Below, in pieces: positions 32,983 to 39,864 of a DNA stretch of 64,000 bases. The stretch comes from Bacteroidota bacterium (GTDB lineage Bacteria; Bacteroidota; Bacteroidia; Flavobacteriales_D; Crocinitomicaceae). The DNA lies in assembly GCA_030148165.1 (NCBI GenBank), contig JASBTZ010000003.1:1240001-1304000 (forward strand), written 5' to 3'. The notes below the pieces were generated by a model. That model had not been told where the DNA came from, made no database searches, and saw only the letters and a list, made by a program, of their open reading frames with translations. Position numbers and translations under genes: made by a program. How positions within the stretch are numbered: position 1 is the stretch's first letter; each line of letters starts with the position of its first letter.

Positions 32983-34068
32983 TTAACTTCCATAGGTCAT
33001 GAGATACGCCTTTAAGAACTCATCAATATCTCCGTTCATAACAGCATCTACATTTCCCGTTTCATAATTTGTTCTTACATCCTTTACAAGTTTGTATGGA
33101 TGCATAACGTAGTTTCTAATCTGTGATCCCCATTCAATCTTCTTCTTATCCGCTTCGATCTCTGCACGCTTTTCCATTCGTTCTCTATACTCTAGTTCGT
33201 ATAGTTGAGATCTCAATAATTGCATTGCTTTCTCTTTGTTCCCTAGTTGAGAGCGAGATTCCGAATTTTCGATTACAATACCGGATGGTTCATGACGTAA
33301 GCGTACTGCCGTTTCGACCTTGTTGACATTTTGACCACCTTTACCGCCTGAACGAAAGGTCTCCCAGGTAATATCAGCAGGGTTAATATTGATTTGAATG
33401 GTGTCATCGACCAAAGGATAAACATAAACCGATGCAAAAGAAGTATGTCTTTTAGCATTGGAATCAAATGGGGAAATACGAACCAATCGATGTACGCCAT
33501 TTTCGCCCTTCAGATAACCAAAAGCAAAATCCCCACTGATCTCAAGTGTTACGGATTTAATCCCTGCGACATCTCCTTCCTGATAATTCAGCTCTTTTAG
33601 ATTATAATTGTTCTTTTGAGCCCACATGGAATACATCCGCATTAACATAGATGCCCAATCGCAACTTTCCGTTCCTCCCGCTCCAGCCGTAATCTGCAGA
33701 ACCGCATCCAGGACATCTTCCTCTCCTGATAGCATGTTCTTCAATTCCAGCTCTTCCACACGATCTAATAATGATTGGTATTGGGAATCCAATTCCTCTT
33801 CTGAACCTTCACCTTCTTTAATAAAATCGAATAACACCTCCAGATCTTCGTAGGATGAATTTATATCGTCATAAGAACCGATCCAGAACTTGAGCGTTCT
33901 GATTTTTTTCATCTTTGCCTCAGCTGTTTTTGGATCATTCCAAAACTCCGGATCCTGAGTTTTTAACTCCTCTTCTCCCAGTTCAAGCTTTTTCTCATTG
34001 ATTTTCAGGTAATCGGCAATAGCGTCAATACGCTTCCTAATTTCTTTGAGTTGGTCCTGATTAATCAT
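32983..34068 (-). CDS. prfB: Peptide chain release factor 2, no programmed frameshift
   Basis: A 361-residue RF2 that terminates at UAA/UGA. The SPF anticodon-like tripeptide ([12 protein letters not shown]) and GGQ ([14 protein letters not shown]) are present. At the position where most bacteria carry the CUUUGA autoregulatory frameshift, the gene reads TAC CTG AAA ATC in a continuous frame, so the frameshift control is absent. ATG 34068 is chosen; a TTG three codons upstream is less likely. TAATTTTG ends six bases upstream on the minus strand. Confidence 0.95.
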
Positions 34069-34074
34069 AGCTAA

Positions 34075-34082
34075 CAAAATTA
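34075..34082 (-). promoter_or_regulatory. Candidate -7 box (TAATTTTG) abutting prfB start
   Basis: Minus-strand TAATTTTG, exact TAnnTTTG match, six bases before the prfB ATG. A further case of a -7 box that would give a leaderless transcript. Confidence 0.4.
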
Positions 34083-34997: not shown

Positions 34998-35663
34998 ATG
35001 GAATTAAAGAAAAGTGCAGAAGCAAATACCGAATCATTAAGGGTTCCCTTGATATTAATCGGTTTCTTGTTTGTTGGTGGATTAGTATTGGCATCCTTCA
35101 CTTATAAAGTTCCTGAACTTGGGGACGATGATACGGGTGTTGGGCCAAAAGTTGCAGATGTTGAATTTCAGCAGGAAGAGCAGCAGGATCAGCCGGAACC
35201 ACCACCGCAGGAAACCCAGGTAGATGTTCCACCGCCGCCACAGGAGGATATCATCGAAGAAGAAGATACAGAGGAGGAGCCACCACCTGTGGTAGATGTT
35301 CCGCCACCAGTTAATATTGGCCCGGTTGAACAACCAAGAGTAGAAAGAGAAATCATTGAATTCCCAGATGTTGAGGCTGCTTTCCCTGGAGGTGCAGCGG
35401 CGATGCAGAAATGGATTAATGATAACATTCAATATCCACAAACTTCCATTGAAATGGGAGAACAAGGTCGTGTTTATCTGAAATTTGTTGTGGAACCGGA
35501 TGGTTCTATCACAAATGTAGAGATCGAACGTGGAGTAAGTAAAGATTTAGACAGAGAGGCAAAACGTGTCGTGCGCAAAATGCCTAAATGGGTAGCTGGA
35601 GAAGCATCAGGTAAAAAAGTGGCAACTCGTTGTCGACTACCGATCATTTTCCAATTAGAATGA
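34998..35663 (+). CDS. TonB-family energy transducer, copy 1
   Basis: A 221-residue protein: one TM helix (about 16-33, VPLILIGFLFVGGLVLASF), an acidic Pro-rich linker (about 60-115, PPPQ, EEEPPP) spanning the periplasm, and a TonB C-terminal domain (about 125-221) with FPGGAAAMQKWINDNIQYP and VYLKFVVEPDGSITNVEIERG. It transmits proton-motive force to outer-membrane transporters; no exbB/exbD is adjacent. The C-terminal domain is about 80% identical by eye to the next gene. A terminator follows. Confidence 0.9.
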   Translation: MELKKSAEANTESLRVPLILIGFLFVGGLVLASFTYKVPELGDDDTGVGPKVADVEFQQEEQQDQPEPPPQETQVDVPPPPQEDIIEEEDTEEEPPPVVDVPPPVNIGPVEQPRVEREIIEFPDVEAAFPGGAAAMQKWINDNIQYPQTSIEMGEQGRVYLKFVVEPDGSITNVEIERGVSKDLDREAKRVVRKMPKWVAGEASGKKVATRCRLPIIFQLE

Positions 35664-35783: not shown

Positions 35784-36443
35784 ATGGAGACGAAGAAATC
35801 ATTCGAAGCAAACATTGATAATCAGCGTACATCAATCATTTTGGTAGCTGCATTATTTGTTGGAGGACTAACACTTGCCTCCTTCTCATACAAAACATCA
35901 ACAGAAATTGGCGAGACTGTCCAACGTAACAATCAAGGCGTTGAGATCAAATTTGAGCAAATTGCAAAAGTCGATCCTCCTGAAATCAAACCACAGATTG
36001 AGGCTGCAATTCCACCTAGTGAAAAGATTATTATTGACAGCAATACGCAAAAGATTCCGGATCCTGTTGTCATTCTTGATCCGCCTGATATAGAAATCAG
36101 TGATACAACAATTAAGATTGTAAAACCTCCTATTGACGATTTTCCGGATTTGGAAGCTAGCTTTCCAGGTGGTGCAGCTGCAATGAACAAATTCATTAAC
36201 GAATACATCACATACCCGCAAACATCCATAGAAATTGGTGATCAAGGAATTGTCTACCTGAATTTTGTTGTAGAACTTGACGGAACTTTAAGCGAAGTGA
36301 AAATTGAAAGAGGAGTTAGCACAGAACTCGATAGAGAGGCAAAAAGAGTTGTTCGAAAAATGCCTAAATGGAAGCCAGGTGAAACGGATGGTAAAAAAGT
36401 ACGAACTAGATGTCGTCTTCCTATTGTATTTGAATTAGAATAA
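35784..36443 (+). CDS. TonB-family energy transducer, copy 2
   Basis: A 219-residue paralogue of the preceding gene. TM helix at about 16-34, linker about 50-115, TonB domain about 120-219 with FPGGAAAMNKFINEYITYP and KPGETDGKKVRTRCRLP. N-terminal tail and TonB domain are near-copies of the first gene, whereas the linker has lost the PPP/EEE runs and instead reads with Ile, Asp and single Pro residues. This points to a tandem duplication with fast linker divergence. A bidirectional terminator follows. Confidence 0.9.
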   Translation: METKKSFEANIDNQRTSIILVAALFVGGLTLASFSYKTSTEIGETVQRNNQGVEIKFEQIAKVDPPEIKPQIEAAIPPSEKIIIDSNTQKIPDPVVILDPPDIEISDTTIKIVKPPIDDFPDLEASFPGGAAAMNKFINEYITYPQTSIEIGDQGIVYLNFVVELDGTLSEVKIERGVSTELDREAKRVVRKMPKWKPGETDGKKVRTRCRLPIVFELE

Positions 36444-36464
36444 TAACAACTAAATCATAGAAAA

Positions 36465-36490
36465 AGCGCGCTCTCGAGCGTGCTTTTTTC
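36465..36490. terminator. Bidirectional intrinsic terminator
   Basis: Eight-base stem AGCGCGCT / AGCGTGCT with one G-T wobble and a CTCG loop, A-run before and T-run after. It ends the tonB gene and the convergent minus-strand aldehyde dehydrogenase operon. Confidence 0.88.
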
Positions 36491-36492
36491 TT

Positions 36493-37374
36493 TTAATATG
36501 TTGAAGAGGCTCCACCAATATTTTCAATTGGATGCCAGGTTGTTTTGACTTCCTGAAAATCACTGATCAAATGAAGGTGTTGACTTTCGTACTTTTCCCA
36601 ATTTAAGTCGTACGAGCGAATGCGCTTTAAATTCCCTACAGACGACTCCTCAAGCATCAACGTAACTTCCTTATCTCTGGTGTCATTGGCGATTGCATTG
36701 ACGTCCATATGCTCAGCCAAAGGCTTAATCAATTCATTCCGTTGTCCCGTTAATATGTTGACCACACCTCCCGGAACATCAGATGAATGTAAAACTTCAG
36801 CGAAAGTCACCGCACACAAGGGTTTTTCCTCGGATGCCAGAACAACACAGGTATTTCCTCCCGCGATCACCGGTGCAATCAAAGAAACCAGGGATAAAAG
36901 AGATGTTCCTCCTTCCGTAATTATACCAACTACTCCCATTGGTTCGCTATTTGAAAAGTTGAAATGTGATGATGCTACTGGGTTGACTGAACCTAGTATC
37001 TGCTGGTATTTATCACACCAACCCGCATAGTAGATTAGTCGATCAATCGAAAGCTCCACTTCGTTTTTCGCTTGTTTGGCATTCAATCCTTGAAAAACAA
37101 GTTCCTCTGTAAATTGTTCCTTTCTCCCTTCGAGCATTTCTGCTATGCGGTACAGTATCTGCGAACGGTTAAATGCTGCTCGTTCGCTCCAGTCACCCAA
37201 TGCCTTCCTTGCAGCGACAACGGCATTTCTGACATCTTTACGGGAAGACAAGCAAATATTTCCTAATGCTTCACCTTTACCACTAGTTGGTGTGTAATAT
37301 CTTCCTGATTCCGTACGCGGGAATTTTCCGCCAATGTAAATTTTATAGGTCTTAAGTACTTTCAATCTGTCCAT
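36493..37374 (-). CDS. Truncated aldehyde-dehydrogenase-fold protein (ALDH16 C-terminal-domain-like)
   Basis: A 293-residue protein matching the N-terminal and NAD-binding half of aldehyde dehydrogenases (YIGGKFPRTESGRYY, RSQILYRIAEMLEGR, GVVGIITEGGTSLLSL, VIAGGNTCVVLAS, VPGGVVNILTG). The catalytic half is missing: there is no ELGGK glutamate motif and no catalytic cysteine. Its stop is normal and its frame clean, so this is not an obvious pseudogene. It follows a complete aldehyde dehydrogenase by three bases; fused, the two would be about 779 residues, the size and arrangement of ALDH16. A scaffold or dimerisation role is inferred. Confidence 0.72.
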   Translation of the reverse strand: MDRLKVLKTYKIYIGGKFPRTESGRYYTPTSGKGEALGNICLSSRKDVRNAVVAARKALGDWSERAAFNRSQILYRIAEMLEGRKEQFTEELVFQGLNAKQAKNEVELSIDRLIYYAGWCDKYQQILGSVNPVASSHFNFSNSEPMGVVGIITEGGTSLLSLVSLIAPVIAGGNTCVVLASEEKPLCAVTFAEVLHSSDVPGGVVNILTGQRNELIKPLAEHMDVNAIANDTRDKEVTLMLEESSVGNLKRIRSYDLNWEKYESQHLHLISDFQEVKTTWHPIENIGGASSTY

Positions 37375-37377
37375 ATA

Positions 37378-38838
37378 TTACTTTAGTTTAACGTACGCCT
37401 CTAAGCCGTGAAGTCCACCTTCACGACCATATCCACTTTCCTTATATCCTCCGAAAGGCGATGTTGGATCAAACTTATTGTATGTATTTGCCCAAATTAC
37501 ACCTGCTTTCAGTTTTGTTGTCAGATTAAAGATCCTCGATCCTTTATCTGTCCAAACACCAGCTGCCAATCCATAAGGCGTATTGTTTGCTTTCTGAATG
37601 ACCTCATCAACCGTCCTGAATGTCTGAATGGTTAAAACAGGTCCAAATATTTCCTCTTGTACGATCACACTCGATTGTGACATTCCAGTAAATAAAGTAG
37701 GTGCGCAGTAGTATCCTCCTTTCGGAAGATCACATGGAGTTTGGTACATCTCTGCACCCTCCTTTAATCCGATTTTAATGTATTTGTTGATTGTATCAAG
37801 CTGCTCCTTTGAGTTAATCGCACCAATATCCGTGTTTTTATCAAGCGGGTCGCCAATAATCAACGATTTCATTCGATGCTTTAGTTTCTCAATAACAATA
37901 TCTGCCACGTTCTCTTGAACAAACAACCTTGATCCGGCACAGCAGACATGCCCCTGATTGAAGAATATACCGTTAATTATCCCTTCAACTGCTTGATCTA
38001 ACGGTGCATCATCCATGATGATATTAGCCGATTTACCACCAAGTTCAAGTGTTAACTTTTTGCCTGTTCCCGCCGTCGCTTTCTGAATAATCTTACCTAC
38101 TGCAGTAGATCCTGTAAAGGCAATTTTGTTTATGTCTTTATGATTCACAATCTCGGCTCCCGTATCTCCAAATCCGGTAACAATGTTTACAACTCCATCA
38201 GGCAATCCGGAATCTTTGATGATCTCCGCCAATTTAAGAGCTGTCAGCGAAGTTGTTTCCGCCGGTTTCAAAACAATAGTATTCCCAGCAGCCAAAGCAG
38301 GTGCAATTTTCCACGCTGCCATCAACAAAGGAAAATTCCAGGGGATTATCTGACCAGCTACTCCTAAAGGTTCTACTCTGCGATTAGGAAATGCGTACTC
38401 CAGTTTATCAGCCCATCCGGCATAATAGAAAAAATGATTACAGGCTAATGGAACATCTACATCTCTCGATTCACGGATCACCTTACCCGCATCTAAACTT
38501 TCAATTACTGCCAATTCCCGAGCACGCTCCTGCATAAGTCTGGCAATACGATAAATGTATTTCGCCCGTTCAGCAGGAGAAATTCTAGACCAAATCTCAT
38601 CATATGCTTTACGTGCCGCCTTTACTGCTTTGTCGACATCACTTCCATTGGCATGAGCCACCTTTGCAATAACTTTTTTATTAGCAGGGTTGATCGAATC
38701 GAAATACTTTCCGGAAGATGGTTTCACCCACTTACCTCCAATAAATAAGTCGTAACGATCCTTCAATTGAATATGACCAGTACTTTCCGGTGCCGAAGCA
38801 TAGTCCCACTTAATTTGATTTGATTTCTTTTTTGCCAT
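37378..38838 (-). CDS. Aldehyde dehydrogenase, complete
   Basis: A 486-residue NAD(P)-dependent aldehyde dehydrogenase. PWNFPLLMAAWKIAPALAAGN (cofactor and Asn), FTGSTAVGK, catalytic Glu in LTLELGGKSANI, nucleophile Cys in NQGHVCCAGSRL, and EEIFGPVL are intact. Position between deoC and the truncated ALDH suggests it oxidises acetaldehyde released from deoxyribose 5-phosphate to acetate or another short aldehyde; substrate is inferred from context. It starts two bases after deoC, so translation is coupled. Confidence 0.93.
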   Translation of the reverse strand: MAKKKSNQIKWDYASAPESTGHIQLKDRYDLFIGGKWVKPSSGKYFDSINPANKKVIAKVAHANGSDVDKAVKAARKAYDEIWSRISPAERAKYIYRIARLMQERARELAVIESLDAGKVIRESRDVDVPLACNHFFYYAGWADKLEYAFPNRRVEPLGVAGQIIPWNFPLLMAAWKIAPALAAGNTIVLKPAETTSLTALKLAEIIKDSGLPDGVVNIVTGFGDTGAEIVNHKDINKIAFTGSTAVGKIIQKATAGTGKKLTLELGGKSANIIMDDAPLDQAVEGIINGIFFNQGHVCCAGSRLFVQENVADIVIEKLKHRMKSLIIGDPLDKNTDIGAINSKEQLDTINKYIKIGLKEGAEMYQTPCDLPKGGYYCAPTLFTGMSQSSVIVQEEIFGPVLTIQTFRTVDEVIQKANNTPYGLAAGVWTDKGSRIFNLTTKLKAGVIWANTYNKFDPTSPFGGYKESGYGREGGLHGLEAYVKLK

Positions 38839-38840
38839 AT

Positions 38841-39764
38841 TTAATCAATTGAAAAATAATCAGAAGACTGGTATACACCCGTCTCCGTTTTTAATATCTG
38901 CATCAGGACATCATTGGCAAGACTGCTGGCACCAAATCTAAACCATTCGTTGGTCAGCCATTCTTCCCCAAGTGTTTCTTTAACCATAACCAAATAGTGC
39001 AAAGCCAACTTTGAATTTGAAATTCCACCTGCCGGCTTCATTCCCACCTGGATACCGGTTTTTAATTTATAATCTCGTATTGCTTCCAACATAGTATAAG
39101 TCACTTGCATCGTTGCCGCTGGTTGAATTTTACCTGTTGATGTTTTAATAAAATCTGCTCCAGCGTATAAGGCAATATCACTTGCTCGCCGGACATTATC
39201 AAGTGTCACAAGTTCTCCTGTCTCCAGAATAACTTTCAATCTCGCATTGCCACATGCTTCCTTAATTGCGGCTATTTCATCAAATACAAAATTGTAATCT
39301 CCTTCCAGGAATTTACCTCGTGAAATAACCATGTCAATTTCATCTGCTCCATTGTCAACAGCGAATTTTGTATCGTCAAGCTTTACTTTTCGTGGAGCTT
39401 GGCCCGAAGGAAATGCGGTAGATACAGATGCTACTTTAACATCGGAACCCTCGACAGCTTTTTTAGCAGTTGCAACCATAGCTGGGTATACGCAAACTGC
39501 TGCTACCGTTGGCAATCCCGGATGAGCATCATGTAAATGCGCTGCTTTGTAACACATTTGCTTTACTTTACCTGGAGTATCTTTCCCTTCAAGCGTCGTT
39601 AGGTCAATCATATTCAGGATCATTTTCAGTCCCTGAAGCTTTGATTCATTCTTGATACTTCGCTTTTGAAATCTGGAAACTCTTTCTTCTACACCAACTT
39701 TGTCAATATGAGCTTGTTGGCTAAAATCAGGTATATCGCTATTTACAAATTTTCTTGCCGGCAT
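38841..39764 (-). CDS. deoC: Deoxyribose-phosphate aldolase
   Basis: A 307-residue class I aldolase that cleaves 2-deoxyribose 5-phosphate to acetaldehyde and glyceraldehyde 3-phosphate. The Schiff-base Lys is in FIKTSTGK; EIDMVISRG, KVILETGEL and GMKPAGGIS are the other family blocks. The N-terminus is longer than in the E. coli enzyme (about 259 residues). The frame is open further upstream, but ATG 39764 follows a -7 box by 20 bases. First gene of the deoC-ALDH-ALDH operon. Confidence 0.94.
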   Translation of the reverse strand: MPARKFVNSDIPDFSQQAHIDKVGVEERVSRFQKRSIKNESKLQGLKMILNMIDLTTLEGKDTPGKVKQMCYKAAHLHDAHPGLPTVAAVCVYPAMVATAKKAVEGSDVKVASVSTAFPSGQAPRKVKLDDTKFAVDNGADEIDMVISRGKFLEGDYNFVFDEIAAIKEACGNARLKVILETGELVTLDNVRRASDIALYAGADFIKTSTGKIQPAATMQVTYTMLEAIRDYKLKTGIQVGMKPAGGISNSKLALHYLVMVKETLGEEWLTNEWFRFGASSLANDVLMQILKTETGVYQSSDYFSID

Positions 39765-39784: not shown

Positions 39785-39818
39785 CAAATATAAGAAAGTA
39801 TACCCCGAAAAATAACAA
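39785..39818 (-). promoter_or_regulatory. Promoter for deoC operon
   Basis: Minus-strand TATATTTG (39792-39785) with a TTG 23 bases upstream, overlapping the tail of the neighbouring terminator. Spacing is at the upper consensus limit. It starts 20 bases before the deoC ATG. Confidence 0.5.
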
Positions 39819-39841
39819 AGCCCTGACGCAAATCAGGGCTT
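39818..39841 (-). terminator. Intrinsic terminator of the MORN-like gene
   Basis: Stem AAGCCCTGA / TCAGGGCTT with a six-base loop, followed on the minus strand by a U-rich but interrupted tail. It lies 23 bases after the MORN-like gene stop. Confidence 0.75.
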
Positions 39842-39864
39842 CGAATTAAATACTTAAACTAATA

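Follow-up and report, generated by a model that had tools for sequence, protein, structure and literature searches.

A two-gene variant of ALDH16 encoded behind deoC in a Bacteroidota genome

Background

Can the two domains of an ALDH16 enzyme be made as separate proteins, and would the non-catalytic one still serve its catalytic partner? Members of this class of aldehyde dehydrogenase (ALDH) are regularly single polypeptides of about 770-800 residues, in which a catalytic ALDH domain is followed by a non-catalytic ALDH-like domain, and we know of no established role for that C-terminal domain. The question is raised by a stretch of 64,000 nucleotides from a Crocinitomicaceae genome (Bacteroidota; assembly GCA_030148165.1, contig JASBTZ010000003.1, positions 1,240,001 to 1,304,000; hereafter the window, whose first letter is position 1 of the coordinates below), where a deoC gene for deoxyribose-phosphate aldolase is followed by one gene for a complete ALDH (alpha) and one for a half ALDH (beta). 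An initial annotation read the pair as a two-gene ALDH16; its facts proved right, and its interpretation is largely supported, with alpha matching the N-terminal and beta the C-terminal domain of the ALDH16 of Loktanella sp.

Results

Alpha and beta correspond to the two domains of ALDH16

The three genes lie head to tail on the minus strand: deoC (38841-39764, 307 residues, with its ATG at 39764 and its stop ending at 38841), alpha (37378-38838, 486 residues) and beta (36493-37374, 293 residues). The gaps of two bases between deoC and alpha (38839-38840) and three between alpha and beta (37375-37377) confirm the tight packing of deoC, ALDH and ALDH-fold protein that had been noted for the locus. 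DeoC scores 177.8 bits against the NCBIfam deoC equivalog TIGR00126, above the cut-off of 117.3.

Alpha had been annotated as a complete catalytic ALDH, and it does carry the residues for it: Asn168, Lys191, Glu265, Cys299 and Glu396, which we take to be catalytic through their equivalence to ALDH2, each occur in 82/82 split ALDHs (residue counts here and below refer to the 82 split and 79 fused sets in which neither part was too short, from 104 and 85 loci first labelled). Its closest solved structure is Loktanella ALDH16 (6mvr), with 571.8 bits for the whole chain as against 435 for the runner-up, and with 507.0 bits for residues 11-476. The C-terminus of alpha (...GLEAYVKLK) falls at the point where the fused protein enters its linker; the last strand of ordinary ALDHs lies beyond this end, and the N-domains of ALDH16 likewise finish short of the final strand. 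Alpha is, in these respects, a catalytic N-terminal domain of the LsALDH16 kind, with Cys and Glu in place.

Beta finds its best solved match in the remainder of the same structure, residues 501-764 of 6mvr (236.3 bits to the whole chain). Its Pfam Aldedh match is limited to positions 14-210 of 461, so that beta lacks the stretch with the catalytic Glu and Cys, as had been described for this half. The position of the oxyanion Asn is Gly (Asn occurs in only 10 of the 82 halves) and that of the NAD-binding Lys is Leu, with Leu, Val or Ile in 82/82. Beta retains a Rossmann domain of the cofactor type, the beta-flap associated with oligomerisation and the last strand; the catalytic domain is absent. 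Because Pfam places alpha and beta in one family, the half is easily mistaken for another aldehyde dehydrogenase. Against PHROGs, beta matched one family of unknown function (E 3e-14).

The initial annotation had proposed comparing the half with ordinary ALDHs, and by bits and by tree the ALDH16 C-domain is preferred. Beta reaches 170.6 bits with the 6mvr C-domain, 63.4 with the N-domain and 114 with the best ordinary ALDH. A careful 46-row tree (12 halves, 16 fused C-domains, 8 ordinary ALDHs and 10 N-domains of ALDH16) unites the halves with the fused C-domains in a single clade, supported at 100/98. Members of an ALDH family share more than 40% identity under the nomenclature rule; alpha and beta joined are 46-50% identical to 39 fused proteins and 47% identical to 6mvr, and beta alone is 34-42% identical to the 39 fused C-domains. 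By sequence, tree and model, beta is an ALDH16-type non-catalytic C-terminal ALDH-like domain. The window encodes the two parts in two genes instead of one chain, and we therefore set the pair apart from regular ALDH16 members and class it as a split variant.

An AlphaFold model of beta, built on an alignment in which beta was the only half beside 39 fused C-domains, reached a predicted local distance difference test score (pLDDT) of 87.5 and superposed on the C-domain of 6mvr/6mvu with a template modelling (TM) score of 0.85 and a root-mean-square deviation (rmsd) of 1.7; a Foldseek search with it ranked ALDH16 first. Aligned to ordinary ALDHs, the model starts in the N-terminal region and runs to the very C-terminus: beta is an ALDH whose catalytic domain has been removed and whose cofactor-type core, flap and last strand have been kept.

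Nine examined positions (K46, D47, D121, K122, G173, D199, H222, K277 and W280) are invariant in all 82 halves and all 79 fused C-domains, and are candidate residues of a contact surface. The last strand of beta reads W-H-P. Its W-H (H281) is found in 82/82 halves, whereas the 79 fused C-domains have W-(V/I/T/L/A) and never H, so that W-H is a clean sequence marker of the split form.

Alpha and beta are retained together, often unlinked

Absence of the half from close relatives had been named as a result that would speak for a decayed paralogue. Beta is instead present in 32/33 genomes of the same genus, with an open frame in 31/33, among them one in which a contig end cuts it (G032); the genome without the half (G009) is 76% complete. 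In the remaining genome of this genus (G030; L109, 4211-5105, minus strand) the half gene runs over two frames, through sequencing error or decay.

Across 395 genomes of the same class, the first count gave 150 with the half and 150 with alpha: both in 146, half only in 4, alpha only in 4 and neither in 241 (Fisher p 9e-98, kinship ignored). On recheck, alpha proved to be present in two pieces in G116 and G385, giving both in 148, half only in 2, alpha only in 4 and neither in 241. The two half-only genomes are 60% (G254) and 73% (G343) complete. As with the half of G030, the broken alpha of G116 (L111) and of G385 may reflect sequencing error or decay.

The proposed count of separate versus fused genes came out strongly on the split side in this class, with 145 split against 3 fused (G060, G387 and G403) among the 148 genomes with both parts. 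In the 142 split genomes with positions, alpha and half lie within 150 bases of each other in 73, and within 2 kilobases (kb) on the same strand in 25 more. Of the other 44, 11 have both on one contig within 20 kb (G061 among them, where the two genes are adjacent but on opposite strands), 3 have them more than 20 kb apart and 30 on different contigs, some of which may be assembly breaks. In 43/142, then, the two genes are separated by more than 2 kb or sit on separate contigs, and their retention together though unlinked is the best evidence that they need each other. A sample of the phylum, partly overlapping that of the class, contained half matches at E 1e-40 in 72/395 genomes, 5 of them fused.

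Split and fused forms are sister lineages

A scan of named genomes, ranked by likeness to the fused protein, returned 80 loci, and all 79 that could be judged (L156 could not) were fused; its design gave preference to fused forms, and this proportion is therefore uninformative on the frequency of split forms. The fused loci span Bacteroidota, Pseudomonadota, Chloroflexota, Gemmatimonadota, Acidobacteriota, Verrucomicrobiota, Myxococcota and other phyla. The only split case among the named genomes, in which Actinomycetota were not widely sampled, is the actinomycete Nonomuraea gerenzanensis, with a trio of deoC, an alpha of 472 residues that is 66.5% identical to the window alpha and a half of 281 residues. 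Fused forms were also seen in named Bacteroidota (Gaetbulibacter, Kaistella, Crocinitomicaceae and Saprospiraceae; L126, L128, L132, L133 and L135). Set against the split form of 145/148 same-class genomes, the fused form in some Bacteroidota points either to transfer between lineages or to an old coexistence of the two.

Two quick trees, with support from the Shimodaira-Hasegawa-like approximate likelihood-ratio test (SH-aLRT) only, agree on how the forms are related. For alpha and the N-domain (30 of 82 split and 31 of 79 fused sequences, with 4 ordinary ALDHs) the split sequences form one clade (93) and the fused another (97); for the half and the C-domain (30 split, 27 fused) the values are 92 and 91. 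Split and fused forms being sister clades in both trees, neither looks like a late by-product of the other. On these trees, whose outgroup branches are long, either a single fusion or a single fission near the base would suffice.

The deoC neighbourhood is shared by both forms

A deoC gene immediately precedes fused ALDH16 in 62/66 loci, and lies upstream of the linked split alpha in all 11 loci with upstream sequence in view (within 400 bases in 10, at 2.2 kb in one); these loci were hand-picked, largely because they were divergent. Among loci with alpha and half unlinked, deoC sequence was found upstream of alpha in L112 and L113, and no deoC was found near the unlinked halves (L098-L101, whose alphas are L112, L113, L116 and L117). 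In Agrobacterium the set comprises an ABC transporter, an epimerase, rbsK (ribokinase), deoC and fused ALDH16, a neighbourhood that, judged by its genes, reads as one for deoxyribose use. Acetyl-CoA synthetase is present in the source genome.

Discussion

A proposed deoxyribose 5-phosphate module with a non-catalytic partner

We favour, with a probability of roughly three in four, the reading that the operon is a module for deoxyribose 5-phosphate breakdown, in which alpha, together with an obligate non-catalytic beta, oxidises the acetaldehyde released by DeoC. This reading is based on the homology of both proteins to ALDH16, the loss of catalytic residues from beta, the co-conservation of the two genes and their linkage to deoC. 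DeoC, whose conversion of deoxyribose 5-phosphate to glyceraldehyde 3-phosphate and acetaldehyde is established enzymology, would supply the aldehyde; the two-gene ALDH16 would then oxidise it to acetate, which acetyl-CoA synthetase could activate. Gene context is what leads us to infer acetaldehyde as the substrate. Alpha would carry the entire active site, and beta would dock on it as the C-terminal domain docks on the catalytic part in fused ALDH16. Beta would thereby take the place that a second subunit has in the classical ALDH dimer, and two alpha and two beta chains would build a tetramer-like particle. We infer this docking because fused ALDH16 is described in a review as two chains that mimic the classical tetramer (PMC8160307). 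The binding of alpha to beta, the 2:2 stoichiometry and a stabilising or shaping role of beta are likewise proposed.

Several observations weigh against this reading. When alpha and beta were joined through the single stop between them, the AlphaFold model (pLDDT 82, predicted TM-score 0.61) kept both folds and had 6mvr as its best Foldseek match, but it did not reproduce the domain arrangement of ALDH16 (rmsd 18 over 759 columns). In VIA, the best 50 rows for this model were ordinary ALDHs that covered its first part, with ALDH16 not among them. Between GREGG and the point where the C-domain match begins, natural fused proteins have 32-79 residues and the joint of the model has only two, which makes its failure to dock a weak test either way. 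For beta by itself, VIA Z was tied between the ALDH16 C-domain (36.0) and the best ordinary ALDH (37.3), the best 50 rows ranging from 35.7 to 37.3; fold alone is thus undecisive, and only sequence and trees discriminate. In the careful tree, two long-branched ordinary ALDHs of the source genome (L004 and L005) adjoin the clade of halves and C-domains, with weak support of 80/74. Alpha stands without a detected half in four genomes (G226, G267, G365 and G439), of which G365 is 99% complete, and one genome has an extra half (G062) and another an extra alpha/half pair (G270). Three genomes have no deoC within 1.5 kb before the unlinked alpha (L116-L118), and pyrimidine nucleoside phosphorylase, family TIGR02644, was not found in the source genome.

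Some of these points would suit a beta that shares ancestry with the ALDH16 C-domain and works as a separate regulator or binding protein, forming no stable complex with alpha and acting elsewhere in aldehyde or nucleoside metabolism. The distance between the genes in 43/142 split genomes and the undocked joined model fit such a protein, as does human ALDH16A1, which is described as non-catalytic and as working by its binding to other proteins (PMC10650815). We nevertheless consider it improbable, given the near-perfect co-occurrence of alpha and half (148 genomes with both, 2 and 4 with one alone), the matching split and fused trees and an alpha that, like fused N-domains, stops before the final ALDH strand. 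Slightly less improbable, though still unlikely, is a split ALDH16 that acts chiefly on an aldehyde other than acetaldehyde, such as glyceraldehyde: the substrate is read from gene neighbours only, 4/66 fused loci lack an upstream deoC, and the three unlinked alphas just mentioned do so within 1.5 kb. What tells against this is that the deoC linkage is conserved over split and fused forms in several phyla and that the Agrobacterium neighbourhood points to deoxyribose.

We give next to no credence to the two remaining explanations, both of which we rejected. The junction between alpha and beta reads TAA TAT ATG, which places the start of beta in the frame of alpha, one stop and one codon later, and could suggest a recoded-stop ALDH16 made as one chain by read-through. 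The arrangement is in frame in only 14/80 close pairs, the window included (the count omits 2 duplicates and 14 loci in which alpha was out of view), and in 1/28 same-genus loci. With an in-frame junction this rare, coincidence is the best reading; the pair also has no linker, and its genes are frequently far apart. If the half were a paralogue of the adjacent ALDH in the course of decay, this would agree with its absent catalytic residues and with the two-frame copy in G030, but the half is open in 31/33 same-genus genomes, one of these cut by a contig end, is kept within the class, has about the same length in members of other families and in one actinomycete, carries invariant residues and groups with ALDH16 C-domains (100/98), not with the neighbouring ALDH.

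Relation to known systems

The two-gene split of alpha and beta has its nearest characterised relative in the Loktanella enzyme (6mvr, 6mvs, 6mvt and 6mvu), which shares with it a catalytic and a non-catalytic ALDH-like part and is the best solved match of both proteins; it differs in being one chain, where the window form has two genes, no linker and an alpha that ends where the fused linker begins, and, together with the other fused C-domains, in lacking the W-H-P strand of beta. Fused relatives in several phyla share with the window their position behind deoC. The classical homotetrameric ALDHs (ALDH2, BetB) have the fold and catalytic residues of alpha, and beta keeps their cofactor and oligomerisation parts; the window pair departs from them in a beta without catalytic domain and an alpha that ends before the final strand, with the partner as a proposed pseudo-subunit. 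Human ALDH16A1 and the window pair probably have a common two-part ancestry. The human protein belongs to the same family and has lost the catalytic residues that alpha of the window keeps (PMC10650815, PMC8160307). A functional analogy from an unrelated family is Trypanosoma brucei PRMT1, which pairs an active enzyme (ENZ) with an inactive homologous partner (PRO) in a heterotetramer (PMC10211241); the window pair, for its part, is known from sequence.

A two-gene ALDH16 was not found among the titles and abstracts listed from the open-licence PMC literature (25 of 182 for papers naming ALDH16), a scope that does not take in the Loktanella study of Liu and Tanner, which could mention such a form. 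ALDH16 as a class is known, with NAD-dependent aldehyde oxidation and esterase activity among its features; as far as these listings show, a form with two genes and a free-standing non-catalytic subunit is new within that literature. In a natural two-gene form, the catalytic and non-catalytic parts can be made separately, deleted and mixed, and the role of the tail becomes addressable by deletion of a single gene; the conserved neighbourhood, moreover, links ALDH16 to deoxyribose use over several bacterial phyla. More tentatively, and at a little under even odds in our estimate, the pair may represent an obligate ALDH-fold enzyme-pseudoenzyme heteromer that is used by many Bacteroidota and by one or more actinomycetes and dates back as far as the fused ALDH16 lineage. 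In it, an ALDH stripped of its catalytic domain would be permanently paired, as dimer partner, with an active one. The two-gene state may even predate the fusion that gave rise to ALDH16, the human protein included.

Borders of the operon and neighbouring genes

Two terminator-like hairpins from a pattern scan, which found 3 sites where 3.0 were expected by chance, are probable borders of the transcription unit. The left one (39816-39843, minus strand, 12 pairs and a T tail) belongs to the upstream gene and lies just 5' of deoC; the right one (36460-36489, plus strand, 13 pairs and a T tail) lies between the beta gene and a convergent tonB-like gene. Elsewhere in the window, a prfB-like gene for release factor 2 (32983-34077, minus strand) is a single frame of 364 codons starting from TTG. 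Its product agrees with the placement in Bacteroidota: in a plasmid collection its three best hits are Phocaeicola, Bacteroides and Parabacteroides, at 56% as against at most 49% for the other matches listed. Programmed frameshifting in prfB is known from many bacteria, and the frameshift seems, from this uninterrupted frame, to be absent in the window. Adjoining the operon and convergent with it are two tandem genes on the plus strand (34998-35663 and 35784-36443) for TonB-like proteins, named by eye, whose ends are similar.

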